Assembly: GCA_019744775.1 (NCBI GenBank)
Contig: JAIETZ010000004.1
Location: 124,001-188,000, forward strand
DNA: 64,000 nt
Direction of reading: 5' to 3'
Origin: Candidatus Obscuribacterales bacterium
GTDB lineage: Bacteria > Cyanobacteriota > Vampirovibrionia > Obscuribacterales > Obscuribacteraceae
Numbering within the stretch: the first letter of the stretch is position 1; each line of letters opens with the position of its first letter. Below are positions 31,610 through 45,322 of this stretch, piece by piece. A program made the position numbers and the translations under genes. The notes beneath the pieces are model-generated. The model searched no databases. It had not been told where the DNA came from and saw only the letters and a program-made list of their open reading frames with translations.

Positions 31610-31667
31610 CAATTCGCACTTGATAACTACATGATATATTTAAGAGGTCGTACAATTACAAACTTAT

Positions 31668-31741
31668 CGGGACGTGGCGCAGCTTGGTAGCGCGGTTGCT
31701 TTGGGAGCAATAGGTCGCAGGTTCAAATCCTGTCGTCCCGA
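31668..31741 (+). tRNA. tRNA-Pro (anticodon UGG)
   Basis: A complete 74 nt cloverleaf: acceptor stem CGGGACG/CGTCCCG with discriminator A, D arm GCGC-loop-GCGC, anticodon stem GTTGC/GCAAT with loop TTTGGGA giving anticodon TGG (proline, CCA and wobble), and T arm GCAGG-TTCAAAT-CCTGT. No CCA is encoded. The gene is the integration target of the element that follows: its last 42 bases (31700-31741) are repeated at 45281-45322, and the element restores the 3' half, so the tRNA stays intact. Confidence 0.96.
31700..31741 (+). repeat. attL: 42 bp direct repeat (tRNA-Pro 3' half)
   Basis: Left copy of the 42 bp attachment repeat, identical to 45281-45322. It runs from the anticodon loop to the discriminator base. 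Flanking bases differ on both sides (31699 C versus 45280 A; 31742 A versus 45323 T), which fixes the repeat length. Crossover in the anticodon stem-loop region is usual for tyrosine integrases using tRNA genes. Confidence 0.95.
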
Positions 31742-31806
31742 AATTTAGTACTAGTGCGGCTTTCGAGCTTCTGACAATATCCAAAATTACGGCCTGTCTT
31801 TTCGCT

Positions 31807-31826: not shown

Positions 31827-31898
31827 TTTGCGTATGTGCTTTGCGAAAGATACTCGCATGACAATCTATACTCTCTCCAGTAGTTGCGCCCCCAGAAT

Positions 31899-33338
31899 AT
31901 GACCAATCCAAAGAAGAAAAAGATTGTTGTTATTGGTGCAATCGGCTTAAGCAGAGTGACAGACAGTTATAGCCTGCGATCATTTTCATGGGACAGCCTT
32001 CATTCGGTCAACAATCTTTCCGACTATGACTTCGTTATTATCAATTTGCTGCCACCACGTCCGAGTCTCTACAGTCACGATTGGACAAAATTCTTCGAGA
32101 AATTGACATTTCGTACTTTCCTAAACGTCGCAAGTCATGATGGACTGTTCATAATAATCGGCGATCCACGCCTTACTGTCCCGGTCCAACCACAACAAGG
32201 CGGAATAGTTGACATTCCATTTCTGAATTGGACCGGATTGACTTTTACCTGGGGGAAAGATGGTGGAGACACTGTCTATCCAACCAAAGAACTTGCACAG
32301 TCACAATTTGCGCCTTATATTGCCAAACTCAAACAATGGGACTATTTCATCGACAAAATCACTATCAATAGAAACGTGTTGACCGCTGCGCTAGGCAAAG
32401 AATATCACCACGCAATCGACGTTAAGTTTGACGAAACGTCACTGGCTAACACACGATTTCACAAATCTTTGGCACTCTATTATTTCTTTCATTTCAGTGC
32501 CAGAATTTCCGAATCCGAATTCACCGATGGAATGTCAACTTGGAAGCGGCTCGCAGAAGCACAAACAGTGGGCCCAGTTATTTTGCTTCCGGACCTGGGA
32601 ATTGGCAGCGACGAAACAATTCATTTGGTGCTCAACGATGTTTTGAACTTGCGTCTTTCAAATCCTGAGCCTGCATGGCTGCAGGACTATGTCGCTCCTG
32701 GGCAAGACGTCATCGACTCAACAATCAGAGACATTGACGCCCAGATTAACAGCCTTCAAGTTCAGCACACCACAAAAATTCAAGAAAGAGTCCAATCTCG
32801 CAGGTGCTTACGTCTTCTGTTCGATGTCGGAACTAACCTAGAAGAAATCGTAAAAGAAGTTCTGAATGACCTAGGCGCCATAGTTCATGAGCCGACTGAG
32901 AAAAACAAGGAAGACGGCTGGATTACCGTAGAAATAGACGGCAACATTCTCGAGGGCGTACTTGAAGTCAAAAGTACTGAAAGGCCTAACTTTGACGAAA
33001 GTGGACTTAGGCAATTGATGGACTGGAAAAACAGAGGCAAGTTGAAGCAGAAATTATACAAGGGCATATTCATAGGCAGTAATTCAGTCAAACTTCATCC
33101 ATCAGAGCGCTCGGAGGGTTTTGGACACTCGCTGATAGAAACCGCAAAAATAGACGACCTAGTAACAATTAAGTGCGATGACCTCTATTGTATTTACCAA
33201 TTACAGAAGCTTGCTCTGCTCGACCAAAAACTTTTCTGGAAGCAATTGTTTGAGACCAAAGGCGTCTTTAATGCATCACAGTTTCGCAAGCAACTGGAAG
33301 AAAATGCTTCTTTAGCCGAGGCAGCAGAAAAAGTATGA
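31899..33338 (+). CDS. Predicted PD-(D/E)XK-type nuclease, possible defence protein
   Basis: A 479-residue soluble protein without a family name that I can give. The N-terminal half (KKIVVIGAIG, SDYDFVIINLLPP) looks like an alpha/beta fold; the C-terminal part has a short coiled region (DIDAQINSLQVQHTTKIQERVQ) and then EDGWITVEIDG..LEGVLEVKSTERPNFDESGLRQLMDW, matching the E-x-K core and following Q of PD-(D/E)XK nucleases. A weak ribosome site precedes the ATG at 31899 (a TTG at 31884 is possible). It overlaps the next gene by ATGA, so the pair is translationally coupled. The place beside attL is the usual cargo slot. Confidence 0.65.
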   Translation: MTNPKKKKIVVIGAIGLSRVTDSYSLRSFSWDSLHSVNNLSDYDFVIINLLPPRPSLYSHDWTKFFEKLTFRTFLNVASHDGLFIIIGDPRLTVPVQPQQGGIVDIPFLNWTGLTFTWGKDGGDTVYPTKELAQSQFAPYIAKLKQWDYFIDKITINRNVLTAALGKEYHHAIDVKFDETSLANTRFHKSLALYYFFHFSARISESEFTDGMSTWKRLAEAQTVGPVILLPDLGIGSDETIHLVLNDVLNLRLSNPEPAWLQDYVAPGQDVIDSTIRDIDAQINSLQVQHTTKIQERVQSRRCLRLLFDVGTNLEEIVKEVLNDLGAIVHEPTEKNKEDGWITVEIDGNILEGVLEVKSTERPNFDESGLRQLMDWKNRGKLKQKLYKGIFIGSNSVKLHPSERSEGFGHSLIETAKIDDLVTIKCDDLYCIYQLQKLALLDQKLFWKQLFETKGVFNASQFRKQLEENASLAEAAEKV

Positions 33339-34327
33339 CCAAAGAGTATCAGCTATTCACCAAATTCAAAGAAGGCGGATTGAACTTTTTAAAACAGCTC
33401 AAAGACGAGGAAACCGCCGAATCTGAAATTCTCGACTTTAAGCGCGCCGAAACTGATTCTGGACCTCTCACCAGAAAGGATCTGCAAAACCTATCAATCA
33501 ACCTGAGTGGATTTGCCAATGCCGAAGGTGGTTTGATTGTTTGGGGCATCGATTGCAGAAGCCATGCTAACGACGACCCAGACACCGTCAAGGAGCTGCG
33601 CCCTATTAAAGACGTGAGTCTCTTCTACCAGCAACTAAAAACAAAATCCGCAGAAGTTCTTTCCCCTGGTATCAACGGAATAGAACATTGGCTTATTGAC
33701 TCAGACCAACCGGACGAAGGCTTTGTAGTAACTTACGTACCAAGGTGGGATGGCTACCCTCAAATGGCTACAGCAAAAGACGTACACCGATATTACTTTC
33801 GCGTCGGACCAAAAACTAACATCATGCCACCATACGTGCTTGCTGATCGTTTCGGTAGACGACCACAGCCAAAGCTGCAAGCAACATGGTTCGTTAGTGG
33901 AGTAGATGCAGTAAATGGAATTTATATACAAGCAGCGTCCATCGTTCTTGGCATTAGGAATGTGGGGGTCGGCACCGCAAACCATCCAGCGATATCGGTC
34001 AACAATTCTGCAAATGACGTGCCGCTAGATCTTCACAGCTATGGTGCGTATGGACTCGAAAAGAGAACGCACTTACGAGTGTCACCCAATGGACGTGACC
34101 CAGCGTTAACTTTCTTTGGCGGACTTATGAACATTGTCATTTATCCTGGCATGACATTGGATTTCACAACTTTTACGTGGGCAGTTGGCGACGATAATTT
34201 CCCGGATATCAAAATTCCCATCTCCTATTACTGCGATTCATTCCATGGAAGCGAAGAACTCCTAATCTGTGGTTCGGAAATTATGGAGGGTCTCAAGTGC
34301 CTAAATAGTCGTCTCAGACTGCGATAA
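33335..34327 (+). CDS. AlbA_2/Schlafen-type putative nucleic-acid-binding protein
   Basis: A 330-residue protein whose N-terminal 150 residues fit the AlbA_2 (divergent AAA_4, Schlafen-like) domain: ESEILDFKRAE, then LSINLSGFANAEGGLIVWGID, then HRYYFRVGPKTNIMPPYVLADRF. The domain occurs in nucleic-acid-binding or RNase proteins and in several anti-phage systems. The C-terminal part (about 190-330) has beta-rich stretches and is not recognised. It is coupled by ATGA to the nuclease-like gene, suggesting a two-protein system. An inverted repeat GTGTTTAT/ATAAACAC follows at 34343-34375. Confidence 0.7.
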   Translation: MTKEYQLFTKFKEGGLNFLKQLKDEETAESEILDFKRAETDSGPLTRKDLQNLSINLSGFANAEGGLIVWGIDCRSHANDDPDTVKELRPIKDVSLFYQQLKTKSAEVLSPGINGIEHWLIDSDQPDEGFVVTYVPRWDGYPQMATAKDVHRYYFRVGPKTNIMPPYVLADRFGRRPQPKLQATWFVSGVDAVNGIYIQAASIVLGIRNVGVGTANHPAISVNNSANDVPLDLHSYGAYGLEKRTHLRVSPNGRDPALTFFGGLMNIVIYPGMTLDFTTFTWAVGDDNFPDIKIPISYYCDSFHGSEELLICGSEIMEGLKCLNSRLRLR

Positions 34328-35361: not shown

Positions 35362-35387
35362 CTGCTTGGATAAATCGGGGAGTCAAA

Positions 35388-35810
35388 ATGAACAGTCAAT
35401 TTATGAGAAGCTTACCTGAACCAGTGCCACCGTTAGATGCTGACGTTGCGGTAGAAGTAATGGGTTGGAGTCTTCAGGTTGGTAAAGGAGGAGGTCCATA
35501 TGATGCTATAGAGGCATGGGCAAAGGGTAATCGTGTGTTGGTTCTTTTTGACGGTGCCAGCATGCGCTGGTCACCGACCGGCGATCCCAGTTCAGCATTT
35601 ATGGTTCTCTTGAATATTGCTCAACGGAATTGGGACGTCAGCATTAACTTCAATCGAGAAACATGCATGTGGTCAGTAACAATTCGAGATGATGAAGGCT
35701 CAGTTTCTGATGAGCAAAGCACCTCTCCAGAAGATTTGCTGTCAATGATAGCTCGTGTTTCATTAGCTGCTGTCAGAAAGAATGAGGGACGGACTGGACC
35801 TCCTGCATGA
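35388..35810 (+). CDS. Small phage-type protein, possible ABA-sandwich domain
   Basis: A 140-residue protein with a strong GGGGAG ribosome site 5 nt before the ATG at 35388. Residues about 60-130 (MRWSPTGDPSSAFMVLLNIAQRNWDVSINF..CMWSVTIRDDEG..STSPEDLLSMIARVSLAAV) have the pattern of phage ABA-sandwich proteins: W-S/T-P, then a helix, a strand ending in W.V.I, and a terminal helix with A..L.A. Its function there is unknown. The identification is by pattern only. Confidence 0.5.
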   Translation: MNSQFMRSLPEPVPPLDADVAVEVMGWSLQVGKGGGPYDAIEAWAKGNRVLVLFDGASMRWSPTGDPSSAFMVLLNIAQRNWDVSINFNRETCMWSVTIRDDEGSVSDEQSTSPEDLLSMIARVSLAAVRKNEGRTGPPA

Positions 35811-35849: not shown

Positions 35850-36248
35850 TTAACGAAAGATGAGTTTCTTTCTTCGTTTACGGGTAACAGCATCCTTTAC
35901 GGTTAACCGCTGTCTGCTCAATGGTCCTATGCCTATTTTTTGCCCCAGCGATAGTGCTCGATTCCAAGCCTTCTGCGATATTGCCAGCTGTGGATGTGCC
36001 TTAGGATTACCATTCTTGGCACTGATGATGATACCGTCCTTGTTGAGAATCAGATCAGCCTCAATAGCTGCTGCTACAGTGCGGCAATATTCAGCCAGGA
36101 TAGGCTTCCTTTCATCAGTGAGAAGCCCGAGCCTGTGTAATTCTGGTGCGCAGATATGCCATTGATTCAGCGCTTCGCCATTCAAATCAAATGGTGGTTC
36201 CAACAGTCCACCGGACAGTGCTTTTAATTGATTTCTATTTTTTGCCAT
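35850..36248 (-). CDS. P27-family phage terminase small subunit (copy 2)
   Basis: A 132-residue small terminase of the P27 type: LNQWHICAPELHRLGLLTDERKPILAEYC matches the conserved W..l.peL...g.lt..D...l..yc segment, followed by DLILNKDGIIISAKNGNPKAHPQLAISQKAWNRALSLGQKIGIGPLSRQRL with the NP and final gl.p.sR motifs. The C-terminus is basic (RKRRKKLIFR). Small terminases select the phage DNA for packaging and need a large subunit, which is absent here. GGAG lies 9 nt before the start. It is the last gene of the minus-strand operon, next to the other P27 gene. Confidence 0.8.
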   Translation of the reverse strand: MAKNRNQLKALSGGLLEPPFDLNGEALNQWHICAPELHRLGLLTDERKPILAEYCRTVAAAIEADLILNKDGIIISAKNGNPKAHPQLAISQKAWNRALSLGQKIGIGPLSRQRLTVKDAVTRKRRKKLIFR

Positions 36249-36274: not shown

Positions 36275-36739
36275 TTAGGAAAAGAACTCCGCATCATCAT
36301 CAGAATCCTCCTCGGAGTCTGTTGAACCCGCGTCTACTCTAGTTCTACTTGAGGGCGTTAAACCGAATTCCTTGGCTATGGACTGAATTTCCTTAGACGC
36401 GTCGGCGGCAATTTTTACATAGGGATTTGCATAAAAGCTCCCTGTTGGTCTCATTAGCACAGCACCTTCCTTGGCAAGCTTTTTCTGGGCATCTAGCCAA
36501 GTTGCCCAGGCACCGCAGTAAAGCTCTAGCTGGCTCTGATCGATCTGAGTCGCAACGCCAAGCCTTTGAAGCTCCGGAACAATTCTAGCCCATTCTTTTT
36601 TGCCTTCGGTTGGCATCCAAGAAGGACAACTTAGATCCCCCGTTGCTGGTTTTGGTTCGTTTGGTAGCCGGCGCTTTCCTGGATTGCCGGCACGCTCTTT
36701 TAGAGCTCTTGATTTTGGAATTGGACCGGGTCTTGCCAT
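36275..36739 (-). CDS. P27-family phage terminase small subunit (copy 1)
   Basis: A 154-residue textbook P27 small terminase: MARPGPIPKSRALKERAGNPGKRRLPNEPKPA start, PSWMPTEGKKEWARIVPELQRLGVATQIDQSQLELYCGAW, then LMRPTGSFYANPYVKIAADASKEIQSIAKEFGLTPSSRTRV. ATG at 36739 has AAGGA 8 nt upstream; the frame continues upstream to 36823 without support. It differs strongly from copy 2, so they are not a recent duplication. In PICI satellites a terminase small subunit redirects the helper phage motor to satellite DNA, and no large subunit is needed. That is the likely role. Confidence 0.88.
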   Translation of the reverse strand: MARPGPIPKSRALKERAGNPGKRRLPNEPKPATGDLSCPSWMPTEGKKEWARIVPELQRLGVATQIDQSQLELYCGAWATWLDAQKKLAKEGAVLMRPTGSFYANPYVKIAADASKEIQSIAKEFGLTPSSRTRVDAGSTDSEEDSDDDAEFFS

Positions 36740-36839
36740 TGTGATTTCCTTTTGATTATTAGTGGTACTAAAAATGGTGCTCGATTTTAATTGTTTAATT
36801 CGCGGTCGTGCGCGCTGACCCAACCGCGCGGTCTTTTGA

Positions 36840-37590: not shown

Positions 37591-37778
37591 GCGGAATTAG
37601 AGGATTTAGCGGAATTGATGACAGGGCTTGGCTTATAGTCTTTACACCTCTGCGAATTTGTGCGGATTTACAAACAGAATTAGTAAGAATCGCTTCTAAA
37701 TCCGCACAAATCCGCAAGTATCCAATTGCCATAAGCCTCATGGCGCTTACTATTCCTCCAATTCCGCTAAATCCGCAC
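37591..37778. repeat. Nested inverted repeats, candidate replication origin
   Basis: Inner pair: TGCGAATTTGTGCGGATTTA (37651-37670) against TAAATCCGCACAAATCCGCA (37697-37716), 19 of 20 complementary, 26 nt spacer. Middle pair: GGCTTAT (37630-37636) and ATAAGCC (37731-37737). Outer pair: GGATTTAGCGGAATTG (37602-37617) against CAATTCCGCTAAATCC (37759-37774). The shared unit GCGGATTTA recurs several times, so it also reads as iterons in both orientations. It lies just beyond the end of the helicase-like gene and overlaps its last codons. Candidate satellite origin; alternatively an RNA hairpin regulating the downstream genes. Confidence 0.55.
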
Positions 37779-39108
37779 CTATAGAAGTAAAACCAGGGGT
37801 AATAGACCACCAAGTAATTGCCTTGCCTTTACCTCGACCCCCACCTTCTTTGCGCTGAGTAATCCTGCCAACCGCTTGGAGATCCGTCAGAATCGCATTT
37901 AAGCGATCAGCCGGCAGGTGACCATTGAATAGCTCATTCAGTTGCGTTTGTGACTTGTCGCCTTCAGCTAGCGCCAAAAGGATTTTGTTTGAGTCTGGGT
38001 CGGCTTCGGTATCGCCGAATATATAGCGAGCCGAATTATGGCAGTACTGCCAGACAGCCAAAGCTGCCTCAAGGTGTTCTGGCAAGATGGTACTGCTCCG
38101 ATCCAGGAGTGCATAGATCAGTGCCAATCTAAGAACTTGAGCTTCAGCTCTGGCAGTGACAACGCCAAGAATGCCTGACTCATCCTGAGAAATCATTGGA
38201 TAAAGGGCTTTCCAAATCTCAATGGTGTTTGAGGCTAGCGATACTATCCCAATATCTGATGCGGTTTTGATTGCTTTAGCCAACTCGCTAGACAACTCAT
38301 CTACTAAATCACCATCCATTGCTTTAGGAAAAGGCACCATCTTCTGTCGTCTCGCGCACACCCAGAGAAATCTATTGGCTAACCCATTCCAAACATCCGA
38401 TGTCTGAAGCAATACTTTCAATTCGTGTCTAGTAATGTGTCCGATTATGCAGACGTGAGCACCAGTCGCTTTGATACGGTTTGATTTAGTTAAGGGTGCC
38501 ATGTCACCGTGATCCCACGATGTTCTCAGAATAGAAGAAAGAGTATTCCCATCGCGCTGTATGGCTTTAAGTGCTCCACCTAATTCACCCTCATAAACAA
38601 CCAGTCGCTTATCGTTTACGCCTTCGTCTTCGAGTTCACCGCTCTTGTTTCTCTTGTCACCGGGATCTCTGACGGCATACACCACACCCTCCCCGGAAGA
38701 AAGAGGACCGTGAGACACCTGCAATGGTGGTAATGCATGAATAGTTTCCGCTCTCTCAAAAATTCTCCGAATGGGGTCTGCTGAAGTCCCTTTGCGAGCA
38801 CGACTTGATGCACCAACTAGGGCTGACATCAGCCTTGGTGGATGATTAGTTTCACCAACACGAATTCTTGCTTGGGATCCGAATGCAGCGCCAGAGTGAG
38901 TTAGTGCTGTCAGTAAAATCGCCGCCGGATCTGCCTCACTATTTTCTGTTGCGGCTCTAACTATATTTCCAGCCAGTCCATATAACGCTTTGTCTGACAG
39001 GATGGGCCATGTGGATGGCGCAGCGGACTCAAGTTTTTCCGGTGTGCCGCTCGTGGATTCGATGGTGAATTCTGGCGTCTCATTGATAATGTTCTTGAGG
39101 CTATTCAT
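37750..39108 (-). CDS. DUF3987-type (YfjI-like) helicase/ATPase-like replication protein
   Basis: A 452-residue protein of the DUF3987 type, common next to primases in phage satellites and integrated elements. Recognised segments: AAILLTALTHSGAAFGSQARI, SALVGASSRARKGTS (a Walker-like loop region), VYEGELGGALKAIQRDGNTLSSILRTSWDHGD, IIGHITRHELKVLLQ, GLANRFLWVCARR, and a C-terminal winged-helix-like tail (LLALAEGDKSQTQLNELFNGHL). It probably acts with the primase at the origin. It overlaps the primase stop by one base (TAATG) on the minus strand. Confidence 0.75.
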   Translation of the reverse strand: MNSLKNIINETPEFTIESTSGTPEKLESAAPSTWPILSDKALYGLAGNIVRAATENSEADPAAILLTALTHSGAAFGSQARIRVGETNHPPRLMSALVGASSRARKGTSADPIRRIFERAETIHALPPLQVSHGPLSSGEGVVYAVRDPGDKRNKSGELEDEGVNDKRLVVYEGELGGALKAIQRDGNTLSSILRTSWDHGDMAPLTKSNRIKATGAHVCIIGHITRHELKVLLQTSDVWNGLANRFLWVCARRQKMVPFPKAMDGDLVDELSSELAKAIKTASDIGIVSLASNTIEIWKALYPMISQDESGILGVVTARAEAQVLRLALIYALLDRSSTILPEHLEAALAVWQYCHNSARYIFGDTEADPDSNKILLALAEGDKSQTQLNELFNGHLPADRLNAILTDLQAVGRITQRKEGGGRGKGKAITWWSITPGFTSIGADLAELEE

Positions 39109-40166
39109 TAGCTCGCCACCTCGTTGCTCATTACGTAGTCAAACCAATCAGTACCAGCTCTAGGTGGCAAGAGCAGTTTGACCTTCTTGTGAGCGTACAG
39201 CAGACGAGTTGCGAGCTTTTGAGCCGCTGCGAGTCCAACGTTGTTCATGTCATGGTCGGCAAATATCATTACTTGCTTCACGGTTTCCGGTACCTCTAAG
39301 GAAGCCATGCCACCGGCGGAAACTGTGGACCACACAGGTAGACCAGTAGTTATATGACAGGCAAGAGCGGTCTCAATACCTTCTGCTATTCCAAGGCTCT
39401 CAGAGGCCTCTTGCAGGCGGATCGCTCCACCTCTAGTGGCTCCTTCGTAGATTGGCTTCATGAGCTTCTTAGGCTTTGCTACAGGTGCTTTCTGTCCGTC
39501 CAGGGTTAGATATGTGCGGTGCAAACAAACTGGCTGATTATCGGATGACATAACCAAGGCCAACATTGACGGAAATGTGCCGAGACAATTATCTCCGTCA
39601 AAATAGTCCAGCTCAGGATGATAACGTAAACAAGCTGGTATATCATCCAGCTTTAGTTCCCTAGTCTTGGTCAGATACTTATGAATCGGATCTCCTGATG
39701 CAACCGATCTGGCTTCTGACCAGAATCTATTCAATATCCGAAGTTGCTCTCCGTTTGCTTGTCTATTGGATGTACCGACATTTACTGCTCTGGAAATCGG
39801 CATAGCTGGTAAGCAAGGCTTTCCAGAGAGTCCGAGATAGTCTGCGACAAGGTTTAAGGAGTAAGTAATTTCAATGCCCCGATAGAGCGCAAGCAACTTG
39901 AATCCATCGCCGGCACCACAGTGACTACAAAAAAATGTACCGTCGTCGTTCTTGTTATCGAATCTAAATCTATCTTTGCCACCACAGCAAGGACATGGTC
40001 CATGTTTACGTCTCAGCAGGTGTGACGGCATACCAAGCGATGTGAGTATCTGCAGCCAGTGCCCGTTCGCCACCTGTTTGACTTCTTTGAAGTCCAGTCG
40101 TTTATAATTTGTACGTGCTATTTGATTCGCCCCGCTTGCTTGAGAGGGGCTTTCATTTGTATTCAT
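39108..40166 (-). CDS. Toprim-domain primase (P4 alpha / phage primase type)
   Basis: A 352-residue primase: a zinc-finger block CPCCGGKDRFRFDNKNDDGTFFCSHCGAGDGF (four Cys, residues about 58-90) followed by a primase core and a Toprim domain with GIAEGIETALACH and MIFADHDMNNVGLAAAQKLA. It makes primers for satellite or plasmid replication. The N-terminal block resembles the P4 primase zinc finger. AAGGAG lies 10 nt before the ATG. It heads the replication pair with the DUF3987 protein. Confidence 0.88.
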   Translation of the reverse strand: MNTNESPSQASGANQIARTNYKRLDFKEVKQVANGHWLQILTSLGMPSHLLRRKHGPCPCCGGKDRFRFDNKNDDGTFFCSHCGAGDGFKLLALYRGIEITYSLNLVADYLGLSGKPCLPAMPISRAVNVGTSNRQANGEQLRILNRFWSEARSVASGDPIHKYLTKTRELKLDDIPACLRYHPELDYFDGDNCLGTFPSMLALVMSSDNQPVCLHRTYLTLDGQKAPVAKPKKLMKPIYEGATRGGAIRLQEASESLGIAEGIETALACHITTGLPVWSTVSAGGMASLEVPETVKQVMIFADHDMNNVGLAAAQKLATRLLYAHKKVKLLLPPRAGTDWFDYVMSNEVAS

Positions 40167-42293: not shown

Positions 42294-43631
42294 CTACGTG
42301 TTACGTCGCATGAATAATTCCGGTTCGACGCCCAACCGACCGGCGAGTCGCTGGGCGTTTTTCTTGCTCAACAAGTGCTTGCCGGATAACAACTCAGAGA
42401 CCGTGCTTTTTGAGCCTAGGATTTTCACCAAATCATTCCGCGTCAGTCCTTGTTCCCTCATCAGCCATTGAAGTGCTTCATGTGGTGGCTTATGGGCAAG
42501 TGTTGCTCGCTGTTTCTGTTCATAAACTCCAATCAATGTGGCAAGAACCTCAAAGTAATCTCGTTCATCAGGTTCTGTGATGTTTCTGCGAAGAGATTGA
42601 CGATGTACGTGCTTGGCTGTCTCGTACTCGCTTTCGGATTGTATTAGGCGTAAGGGTAGCTTTGAAAACCAGCCGAGATATCTTGAATAGTCTTTGAAGC
42701 GCCTCATAGTGGTGACAAGCGCTTCTAGCTCATCTGGTGTCACACTTTTCTTGGAAAGCAAGCTCATGCTTTCCTCCGGCAAATCGTTGAACCATTGCTG
42801 TTGTACTAACTGTCTAGCTTCTAGCTCAGCATCTTTGCCAGCAATCGCGTATACCTTCATCGTTGTCACCAACGACTTGTGATTCATAGCCCCTTGAATA
42901 ATTGTCGCGCTGACATTCAAGTCAGCCATTGCTGCGGCAAGCGAGCGTCTTAAATCATGTGGACGAGCATACGGTATCTCCGCGGCAGCAATAAGGCTGC
43001 GCCATGATTTATACAACCAACCCATGTGACCCTCACCCTGTGCGGACGGAAAGACCCATGGCGTGTCATTCTTGCGCGAATTGATAATATTCAATTCATT
43101 AGGACCTAAGGGGATTAATTGCGGCGTGCCATTTTTTGTTTTGGGAATAATCCACCATCGAGCTTCAAGATTCAGATGTTCCCAGCGCATGGATAATAGA
43201 CTGTTTCTGCGGACACCGGTAAACAGTGAGAGCATCACATAGTCGTGGAGATCTTTGTTTTCTCGCTTTTGCAAGAGTCGATTTAGCGTTTGAACTTCTG
43301 ATGCGCTTAGTCGTCTAGTTCTGACATTCTCTGGAAATTGTTCTACCAGAGCAAATGGATTGGGTTCAGAGCACAGTTGCCATTTTATGCCTTTATTCCA
43401 GGCCGCTTTAAGCGTCTGTAAAACCCTGTTGGATTGAATAGGTGACCGTTCACCGATTCGCTGATGCAGCGCTTCGGCAACGGTAATATCAATCTCGGAT
43501 AGCTTTCTGGCGAACATGTAACTAACATGCTTATTTAAGGTTTGCTCAGTAGCTGTTGCGGTAACGCGGCGCTTATACATGTGTCTATGCAAATAGGCAT
43601 CGATCAAGTCTTTTAGAGTTAGATCGTTCAT
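42294..43631 (-). CDS. Tyrosine recombinase fused to a HigA-type antitoxin domain
   Basis: A 445-residue fusion. Residues 1-280 are a phage-type tyrosine recombinase with all catalytic positions: Arg141 (TGVRRNSL), His225 and Arg228 (HDLRR), His251 (MNHKS), Tyr261 (KVYA). Residues about 330-445 match a full HigA antitoxin: ESEYETAKHVHRQ, ERDYFEVLATLIGVYEQK, then the HTH (HEALQWLMREQGLTRNDL, LGSKSTVSELLSGKHLL, LAGRLGVEPELF). HigA proteins bind their own promoter and neutralise HigB; no HigB-like gene is seen nearby. An 18 bp palindrome lies 63 bp upstream. Most likely a self-regulating excision or inversion factor. Confidence 0.85.
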   Translation of the reverse strand: MNDLTLKDLIDAYLHRHMYKRRVTATATEQTLNKHVSYMFARKLSEIDITVAEALHQRIGERSPIQSNRVLQTLKAAWNKGIKWQLCSEPNPFALVEQFPENVRTRRLSASEVQTLNRLLQKRENKDLHDYVMLSLFTGVRRNSLLSMRWEHLNLEARWWIIPKTKNGTPQLIPLGPNELNIINSRKNDTPWVFPSAQGEGHMGWLYKSWRSLIAAAEIPYARPHDLRRSLAAAMADLNVSATIIQGAMNHKSLVTTMKVYAIAGKDAELEARQLVQQQWFNDLPEESMSLLSKKSVTPDELEALVTTMRRFKDYSRYLGWFSKLPLRLIQSESEYETAKHVHRQSLRRNITEPDERDYFEVLATLIGVYEQKQRATLAHKPPHEALQWLMREQGLTRNDLVKILGSKSTVSELLSGKHLLSKKNAQRLAGRLGVEPELFMRRNT

Positions 43632-43863: not shown

Positions 43864-45105
43864 TCAATTAGCAACGACCACAATCGGCTCGCTATCCTTC
43901 AACTCTTCCTTCTTGATAAATTTGTCCAAAAAGTAAGCGGAAATTTTCTGCATAGGCATTCGTAATCTTTCAACGTCGGTAACTATATACCCGAGAGTAA
44001 CGTCGGAACTATTGCGATGATTTGCCAATTTCTTAACTGCATAATGCGGTATATCCAGCTTTTCCGCAGTTGTCAGAAAAGTGCGACGCAAGTCGTGAAC
44101 CATAAACTTAACACCCGAATTCTTGATAATCCTTTCCACAGCTCGCTTGCATTCGACCATATGAGTGTTGCTTTCTTCACCAGGAAAAACATACGGGTTA
44201 TCTATTCTGATTACCTTTGCACGCTCACCCAGCAAGGCTATTAGATAGTCAGATAAGGGAAGCCGATGCTCATCATGATTCTTTGCCTCTTCAGATGGAA
44301 TTGTTAGGGTCTTGTTTTTGAAATCAACATTGCACCATTTGAGCTTTGAAGCTTCACCACGCCTCAAACCAGTAAATAGGCACAGGAGAAAGAAATCACG
44401 CATCACGTCGTTCTCCAGAGACATTACAGCCTGATACCAATCAGGAAGCTGATGGTCGTGAATTACCGATTGTCTACGTGGAATGCGATTCCATGCCTTT
44501 ATCTGAGATAAACGGCGAACTGGATTGTCCTGCAAGATGGAATGTCCGTCGCTATCCTCATATGTAGCCAGAGCATAGTTGAACAGACAACGCAGTACAC
44601 GCATGACTTGATGCGCCTGAGCTTCTCCCTTACCACGTGGACCATTGGCATTGGAGAGCTGCTTGTGCCGGCGTTCCACCATATCCTTGGTAATCTCAAC
44701 AATAGGCTTGTTTTGCCATTCGGTGAGACACCTGTTCACCGCGCCATCGTATAGCCTGATGGTCGTCGGTCTAAGATTTTTGGATTGCTTGTAGGACTCT
44801 AAGACCTCTGCAAGGGTAATCGACTTTGCTTTCTGCTCGGCCTTGCGAGTGTTTGGATTGATTCCCTTTTCCATCAATCTAAGCAAGTCCTTCGCTTCAT
44901 CCTCTGCTTGCTTAGGTGTCCAGTTACCATGTTTGCCAATCTTGACCCGACAAACCTTGCCTTTGACGCGTCCTTGAGCAAAGTAGGTCTTGCTACCGGC
45001 AGTAACCCGCAAGCCAAACCCCTTGAGTTCTTCATCGAAGTATAGTTTCGCTCCGGTCGCTGGGTGTTCCACTTTATCGACGAATGTTTTGTTAAGTCTT
45101 GGCAT
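43864..45105 (-). CDS. int: Tyrosine integrase of the element (DUF4102 arm-domain type)
   Basis: A 413-residue P4-like integrase: arm-binding DUF4102-type N-terminus (YFDEELKGFGLRVTAGSKTYFAQGRVKGKVCRVKIG), a core-binding middle, and a catalytic domain with Arg248 (TGLRRGEASKL), His337 and Arg340 (HDLRR), His363 and Tyr373 (LGYI). Next to attR, reading away from it, it is the integrase expected to act at the tRNA-Pro site. Arm-like repeats occur at 31807 and 45142. No good Shine-Dalgarno is visible for its ATG at 45105. Confidence 0.93.
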   Translation of the reverse strand: MPRLNKTFVDKVEHPATGAKLYFDEELKGFGLRVTAGSKTYFAQGRVKGKVCRVKIGKHGNWTPKQAEDEAKDLLRLMEKGINPNTRKAEQKAKSITLAEVLESYKQSKNLRPTTIRLYDGAVNRCLTEWQNKPIVEITKDMVERRHKQLSNANGPRGKGEAQAHQVMRVLRCLFNYALATYEDSDGHSILQDNPVRRLSQIKAWNRIPRRQSVIHDHQLPDWYQAVMSLENDVMRDFFLLCLFTGLRRGEASKLKWCNVDFKNKTLTIPSEEAKNHDEHRLPLSDYLIALLGERAKVIRIDNPYVFPGEESNTHMVECKRAVERIIKNSGVKFMVHDLRRTFLTTAEKLDIPHYAVKKLANHRNSSDVTLGYIVTDVERLRMPMQKISAYFLDKFIKKEELKDSEPIVVVAN

Positions 45106-45280: not shown

Positions 45281-45322
45281 TTTGGGAGCAATAGGTCGCA
45301 GGTTCAAATCCTGTCGTCCCGA
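45281..45322 (+). repeat. attR: 42 bp direct repeat (tRNA-Pro 3' half)
   Basis: Right copy of the tRNA-Pro 3' half, identical to 31700-31741. It lacks the 5' part of a tRNA gene, so it is not a second tRNA. It ends 8 bp before the stop of the TolC-like gene, so the undisturbed chromosome would have the tRNA gene and that convergent gene nearly touching. Confidence 0.95.

Follow-up and report, generated by a model that had tools for sequence, protein, structure and literature searches.

The genome studied here (4.1 Mb) belongs to a Candidatus Obscuribacterales bacterium, and our analysis covered a window of 64,000 nucleotides (GenBank assembly GCA_019744775.1, contig JAIETZ010000004.1, positions 124,001 to 188,000), to whose first letter all positions refer. 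In this window, two overlapping genes, named P0001 and P0002 like their products, lie inside a 13.6-kb element, near one of its ends; the element is integrated at a tRNA-Pro gene and bounded by an exact 42-bp direct repeat (31700-31741 and 45281-45322). The locus comprises the following features:

31667..31742, plus strand: tRNA-Pro (TGG), attachment gene of the satellite (ARAGORN)
31700..31741, plus strand: attL, 42-bp repeat within the tRNA-Pro 3' end (exact copy at 45281-45322)
31899..33338, plus strand: P0001, 479 aa, ATG start (ORF)
33335..33338, plus strand: ATGA start/stop overlap of P0001 and P0002 (ORF coordinates)
33335..34327, plus strand: P0002, 330 aa, ATG start (ORF)
35850..36248, minus strand: small terminase subunit 1 (Terminase_4; Pfam E 2.3e-17)
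36275..36745, minus strand: small terminase subunit 2 (Terminase_4; Pfam E 3.4e-29)
37750..39108, minus strand: DUF3987 helicase/primase-like replication protein (Pfam E 8.9e-14; PHROG helicase)
39108..40166, minus strand: primase with zinc ribbon and Toprim (Pfam; phrog_510 1.3e-72)
42294..43631, minus strand: tyrosine integrase with C-terminal HTH (phrog_1 and transcription-regulator PHROGs)
43864..45105, minus strand: tyrosine integrase adjoining attR (Pfam Phage_integrase 1.9e-17 and arm domain)
45281..45322, plus strand: attR, second copy of the 42-bp repeat (exact repeat of 31700-31741)

Given that the element combines two integrases, a primase, a DUF3987 protein and two small terminases, and that Pfam and PHROG searches recognised neither a large terminase nor a capsid gene between the att repeats, its assignment as a phage satellite without recognised virion genes is supported. 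The repeat, the tRNA-Pro gene and this gene set bear out the location in a satellite beside attL that an initial annotation of the locus had given. The satellite also holds a tandem pair of differing small terminase genes (35850-36248 and 36275-36745) unaccompanied by a large terminase, the integrase at 42294-43631 carries a C-terminal XRE-like HTH fusion and is adjoined by the second integrase, and the small protein encoded beside the gene pair (35385-35810) weakly matches Phage_ABA_S.

The start of P0001 is at the coordinate given in the initial annotation, 157 bp downstream of attL, with an alternative TTG start at 31884; the gene ends at 33338, that is inside P0002. The annotated overlap by ATGA was likewise correct: both genes are open reading frames, the frame was confirmed and the bases 33335-33338 are shared. 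No promoter or terminator above chance was found around the two genes. The GC content of the pair does not differ from that of the host and its composition is thus uninformative on a recent arrival.

Profile searches with P0001 in Pfam, NCBIfam, PADLOC, PHROGs and PDB sequences yielded nothing meaningful. The family is thus uncatalogued in the libraries searched (Pfam, NCBIfam, PADLOC, PHROGs), in line with its earlier description as an unrecognised protein. The same description had pointed to a PD-(D/E)XK-like C-terminal core with an E-x-K motif followed by a glutamine. Both are present as E356-V-K358 and Q372, and E315, D339, E356, K358 and Q372 are invariant across five aligned full-length relatives. 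From the alignment, an AlphaFold2 model and a match to FokI, we delimited an N-terminal Rossmann-like domain (residues ~5-120), a coiled-coil helix (269-307) and a C-terminal PD-(D/E)XK domain (~310-455). The model was built from three sequences with a mean pLDDT of 60, most of the C-terminal third being better (mostly 58-87 per ten-residue block). Structure prediction, which had been proposed as a check on the nuclease core, gave the element order of PD-(D/E)XK folds, alpha-beta-beta-beta-alpha-beta (helix 312-324, strands 328-330, 340-346 and 349-360, helix 367-382, strand 387-395). FokI was the top match of the nuclease domain in both fold searches, with E 1.9e-3 in Foldseek and a Z of 14.1 in VIA (154 residues aligned at an rmsd of 4.2), followed in the second search by N.BspD6I (Z 12.3). 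D339 and E356 are 17 residues apart, the same spacing as in the catalytic positions of FokI, which we take to be D450 and D467-x-K469. According to the model, the C-terminus of P0001 is hence a FokI-like PD-(D/E)XK nuclease domain with D339, E356 and K358 intact, and on the strength of fold and residues the protein is quite probably an active DNase.

P0001 shares with FokI and N.BspD6I the alpha-beta-beta-beta-alpha-beta core, the D...E-x-K signature and the FokI spacing; however, identity is only ~12%, the Rossmann-like domain and the coiled coil stand in place of a sequence-specific DNA-binding region, and E315 and Q372 are additional conserved residues. The conserved set of E, D, E-x-K and Q is also reminiscent of Mrr-type (type IV) nucleases. 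One relative of P0001 (L002) touches the Mrr_cat model at 14.0 bits (E 0.057), below the cut-off of 21, but P0001 itself has no Pfam match to Mrr_cat.

The N-terminal ~120 residues of P0001 look Rossmann-like in the model, and the fold search barely covers this part; flavodoxin/ThuA-like folds appeared among the matches, which were too weak for an assignment. With its Rossmann-like N-terminus, nuclease C-terminus and similar length, P0001 resembles Card1 and Can2, and this domain order argues for a sensor-gated effector in which a nucleotide second messenger binds the N-terminal domain and switches on the nuclease. The nuclease domain indeed matches Can2 (Z 6.7) and VC1899 (Z 8.4), but it is the only part that matches, and less well than it matches FokI. 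Moreover, the N-terminus showed no CARF or SAVED domain in Pfam or PADLOC, no CARF or SAVED chains were among its fold matches, and the element contains no recognisable cyclase gene. We therefore regard such a second-messenger switch as very improbable.

The second gene had been annotated as AlbA_2-type, an assignment that withstood closer inspection: P0002 passes the cut-off of Pfam PF04326 (AlbA_2) narrowly (26.2 bits, cut-off 25.3), and Schlafens lead both profile and fold matches. Among PDB sequences, a profile of ten AlbA_2 domains found mammalian Schlafens, SLFN8/13 at 3.2e-5 besides SLFN14 and SLFN5, and the fold search, performed with a weak AlphaFold2 model (four sequences, mean pLDDT 52), was topped by SLFN13, SLFN11, SLFN12 and SLFN14. 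The AlbA_2/Schlafen domain spans residues 29-164, with E29, D34 and K36, and is followed by a C-terminal half predicted to be beta-rich. A PDB profile match of this half to the ClpC N-domain (E about 1e-3) was dismissed, as the model shows strands there and a domain-restricted search yields Schlafens; the ClpC N-domain is helical. In rat SLFN13, the active site consists of the three carboxylates E205, E210 and D248, and alanine mutants of E205 and E210 are fully inactive (PMC5862951). P0002 E29 and D34 align with E205 and E210, but the position of D248 is occupied by C74, with D73 adjacent (position 73 is an aspartate in 6 of 13 aligned proteins). Because of this third position, an RNase activity of P0002 is plausible but not secure, and judged from the aligned residues the chances that P0002 is an active RNase are about even. 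Bacterial Schlafens of the AlbA_2 type are reported to act in anti-phage defence (PMC12839542, citing preprint 10.1101/2025.07.24.666596). Those linked to BREX carry a histidine-kinase/wHTH fusion (PMC12839542), instead of which P0002 has its beta-rich C-terminal domain. Neither P0002 nor P0001 matched a model of PADLOC-DB.

Intact P0001-type genes are rare, have a scattered distribution and differ in their partners. Full-length relatives with 26-35% identity were found at four loci (L001, L002, L013 and L014). The closest of them (L001, 35%) is from Verrucomicrobiales, and the hosts of L013 and L014, which have a cyanobacterial look, belong to the phylum of the source genome. At L014, the intact relative lies 82 bp after an OLD/AAA-Toprim gene; at L081, it and a type IIG restriction gene share the overlap TGATG; at L002, it is one gene away from a type IIG-like gene. 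In the short contigs available, no satellite was seen around the relatives that adjoin restriction genes. L013 and L001 are intact as well and sit in ordinary chromosomal surroundings without a visible partner. Scans of viral contigs found no P0001 relatives. A candidate family member, an unannotated solo protein of 446 aa with a two-part layout like that of P0001, is encoded on IncF plasmids of Enterobacter hormaechei (L024:7251-8591), with 100% identity among seven Enterobacter plasmids. A search of E. coli DNA with its gene gave nothing. Its PADLOC match to CARF3 (E 0.001) falls into the coiled-coil/nuclease part and not into the N-terminus, for which reason a CARF reading was discarded.

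A different picture emerged from fixed homologues. The P0001 profile matches proteins in 39 of the 50 genomes that served as comparison set for the host family. These proteins are mostly 600-1300 aa long and are covered over the coiled coil and the nuclease domain (hhalign 98.1%), but the E-x-K motif is missing in all nine copies read (L030-L038), several of which are followed by a gene for a receiver-like protein that has a membrane segment at its C-terminus. In the source genus, the profile gave no match of this type. Five full-length homologues from one cyanobacterial family (L082-L086) stand alone among ordinary chromosomal genes, and their catalytic positions are degenerate as well (T/A315, I/V/A339, L/V/D356). 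The initial annotation had held that homologues confined to housekeeping contexts would speak against a defence role. The homologues found are not confined in this way: housekeeping-like contexts do exist, but the copies read there, in the source family and in these cyanobacteria, have lost catalytic residues. Judging by their residues, the fixed copies read thus appear catalytically dead, whereas intact ones tend towards mobile loci or coupled partners, a contrast that looks like repeated domestication of P0001-type nucleases. The contrast is a pattern in the loci read, given without statistics and with the intact, partnerless L013 and L001 as exceptions.

P0002-type genes occur in 11 of the 50 genomes of the host family, and every strong copy read there lies in a mobile or defence locus. 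The closest relatives of P0002 are copies in its own genus and family. Relatives were found beside DISARM (L015; DrmA 2.6e-220, DrmMII 3e-96), beside an Mrr_cat nuclease and an Xre/RES toxin-antitoxin (L053), with mobilisation (relaxase) genes (L055-L057) and, in three further cases, in viral contigs; solo relatives occur in phages and mobilisable elements. In three loci, the neighbour is a second gene on the same strand, namely an OLD/AriA-like gene after a gap of 50 bp (L017), an orphan gene of 298 aa at a distance of ~22 bp (L054) or another AlbA_2 gene (L016), the latter two with integrase genes nearby. A tblastn search of plasmids and phages with P0002 yielded nothing. The orphan gene (L054:1628-2524), directly 3' of its P0002-like neighbour and from the same genus, carries a D-x-E...Q-F-K motif and has no library match; judged by this motif, its product could be another PD-(D/E)XK nuclease. 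Furthermore, a viral contig of 6.9 kb (L027), which is inovirus-like, contains a Zot-like gene and looks like a filamentous-phage genome, bears a solo P0002-like AlbA_2 gene at its end.

Sister satellites, identified by their DUF3987 protein (45-60% identity), show what else can occupy the region between the replication block and the end tRNA. One of them (L066) has a PD-Lambda-4_A-like gene (1e-25) there, next to tRNA-Arg, and another (L070) an LmuA-like gene (6e-13; weak DUF4297 match), next to tRNA-Leu. P0001 and P0002 occupy the equivalent region, and homologues of both are absent from the sister satellites read. In L066 (6253-12057), the PD-Lambda-4_A-like gene, with a nuclease-like motif (DGGVD...QYK) and an NTPase, adjoins an MvdD-type ATP-grasp gene. 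Owing to these defence-like genes by the end tRNA and to the P0002 relatives in defence or mobile loci, the role as anti-phage cargo suggested in the initial annotation appears likely for our pair. Antiviral hotspots are carried by satellites, and in those of P4-like satellites, too, the defence genes vary but their slot within the integrated satellite, which encodes an integrase and a primase, is fixed (PMC9122126). The present case differs in that it concerns another phylum and an unrelated satellite with two small terminases, and the slot is on the tRNA side of the element, distant from the integrase.

Alternatively, the genes might serve the satellite itself, in replication, control of packaging or interference with a helper phage. 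The latter is a known satellite trait, both genes lie inside the element beside attL, and solo AlbA_2 genes are borne by phages. We nevertheless consider this improbable: neither gene is present in the sister satellites read, two of which have defence-like genes in that region instead, P0002 relatives occur outside satellites, beside DISARM and in mobilisable elements, and P0001 relatives lie by restriction genes with no satellite in view on the short contigs available.

Do P0001 and P0002 form one system or a modular pair? The initial annotation had raised the possibility of a new two-gene system, which in its strict form means that neither protein works alone: one of the two, be it the Schlafen protein or the nuclease, would sense infection and then release or target the other. 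The ATGA coupling would fit, as would the same-strand second gene near P0002 relatives in three loci and the close neighbours of intact P0001 relatives at L014 and L081. Inspection of gene neighbourhoods showed defence and mobile contexts but not a constant pairing: in the loci read, no P0001 relative adjoins an AlbA_2 gene and no P0002 relative adjoins a P0001 relative. The former are found with OLD, with type IIG genes or solo, including the solo copies L013 and L001 and the solo relative on Enterobacter plasmids, the latter with OLD-type genes, an orphan, a second AlbA_2 gene or solo. The nearest relatives also differ, being from Verrucomicrobiales for P0001 and from the own genus and family for P0002. 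Since each gene's relatives have other partners and the pair recurs at none of the other loci found, a new obligate system is unsupported; we rate it as unlikely, and give similarly poor odds to a two-component system with exchangeable nuclease partners. That P0001 and P0002 depend on each other at all seems rather doubtful.

We thus favour, with a probability of roughly 60%, that the pair is a variable anti-phage cargo operon of two independently mobile nuclease genes in a tRNA-Pro-integrated satellite. Several points weigh against this reading: the AlphaFold2 models are thin, P0002 has C74 at the third Schlafen carboxylate position, neither protein matches a PADLOC model, the partners are unconserved so that the coupling may be accidental, and some intact P0001 relatives are solo in the ordinary chromosome (L001, L013). 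There is precedent for the fold classes and for cargo arranged in this way in a satellite, whereas the P0001 family is new with respect to the libraries used, and the gene combination is new among the loci searched.

For a modular cargo operon of this kind, we infer that the proteins act as nucleases and against phages, together with what they cut, what triggers them and how they might physically cooperate, along the following lines. (i) The ATGA overlap would couple P0001 and P0002 translationally. (ii) P0001 would act as a metal-dependent DNA endonuclease, which cuts DNA with its C-terminal FokI-like PD-(D/E)XK domain, probably dimerises via the long coiled-coil helix and probably senses a signal or gates its activity through the N-terminal Rossmann-like domain. 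(iii) The AlbA_2 domain of P0002 would probably bind or cut RNA (tRNA-like), its beta-rich C-terminus probably mediating binding. Together, both proteins may stop infection, as phage DNA is attacked and translation is shut down in the infected cell.

More tentatively, and with odds clearly below even, P0001 may found a widely scattered family of sensors combined with a FokI-like nuclease, which joins up with Schlafen, OLD or type IIG restriction proteins as partners in defence and whose catalytically dead descendants became domesticated, fixed genes of the chromosome throughout entire bacterial groups. At the present locus, it would form a module with a Schlafen RNase that attacks both DNA and RNA. 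If true, defence-nuclease domestication could be tested directly on the two kinds of copies, the intact ones that are mobile or coupled to a partner and the dead ones that are fixed. If the pair indeed serves in defence, an uncatalogued nuclease family, with one relative on Enterobacter plasmids, would join the defence repertoire, and satellites of a little-studied bacterial group would have a slot for exchangeable defence genes, comparable to the P4 hotspot.
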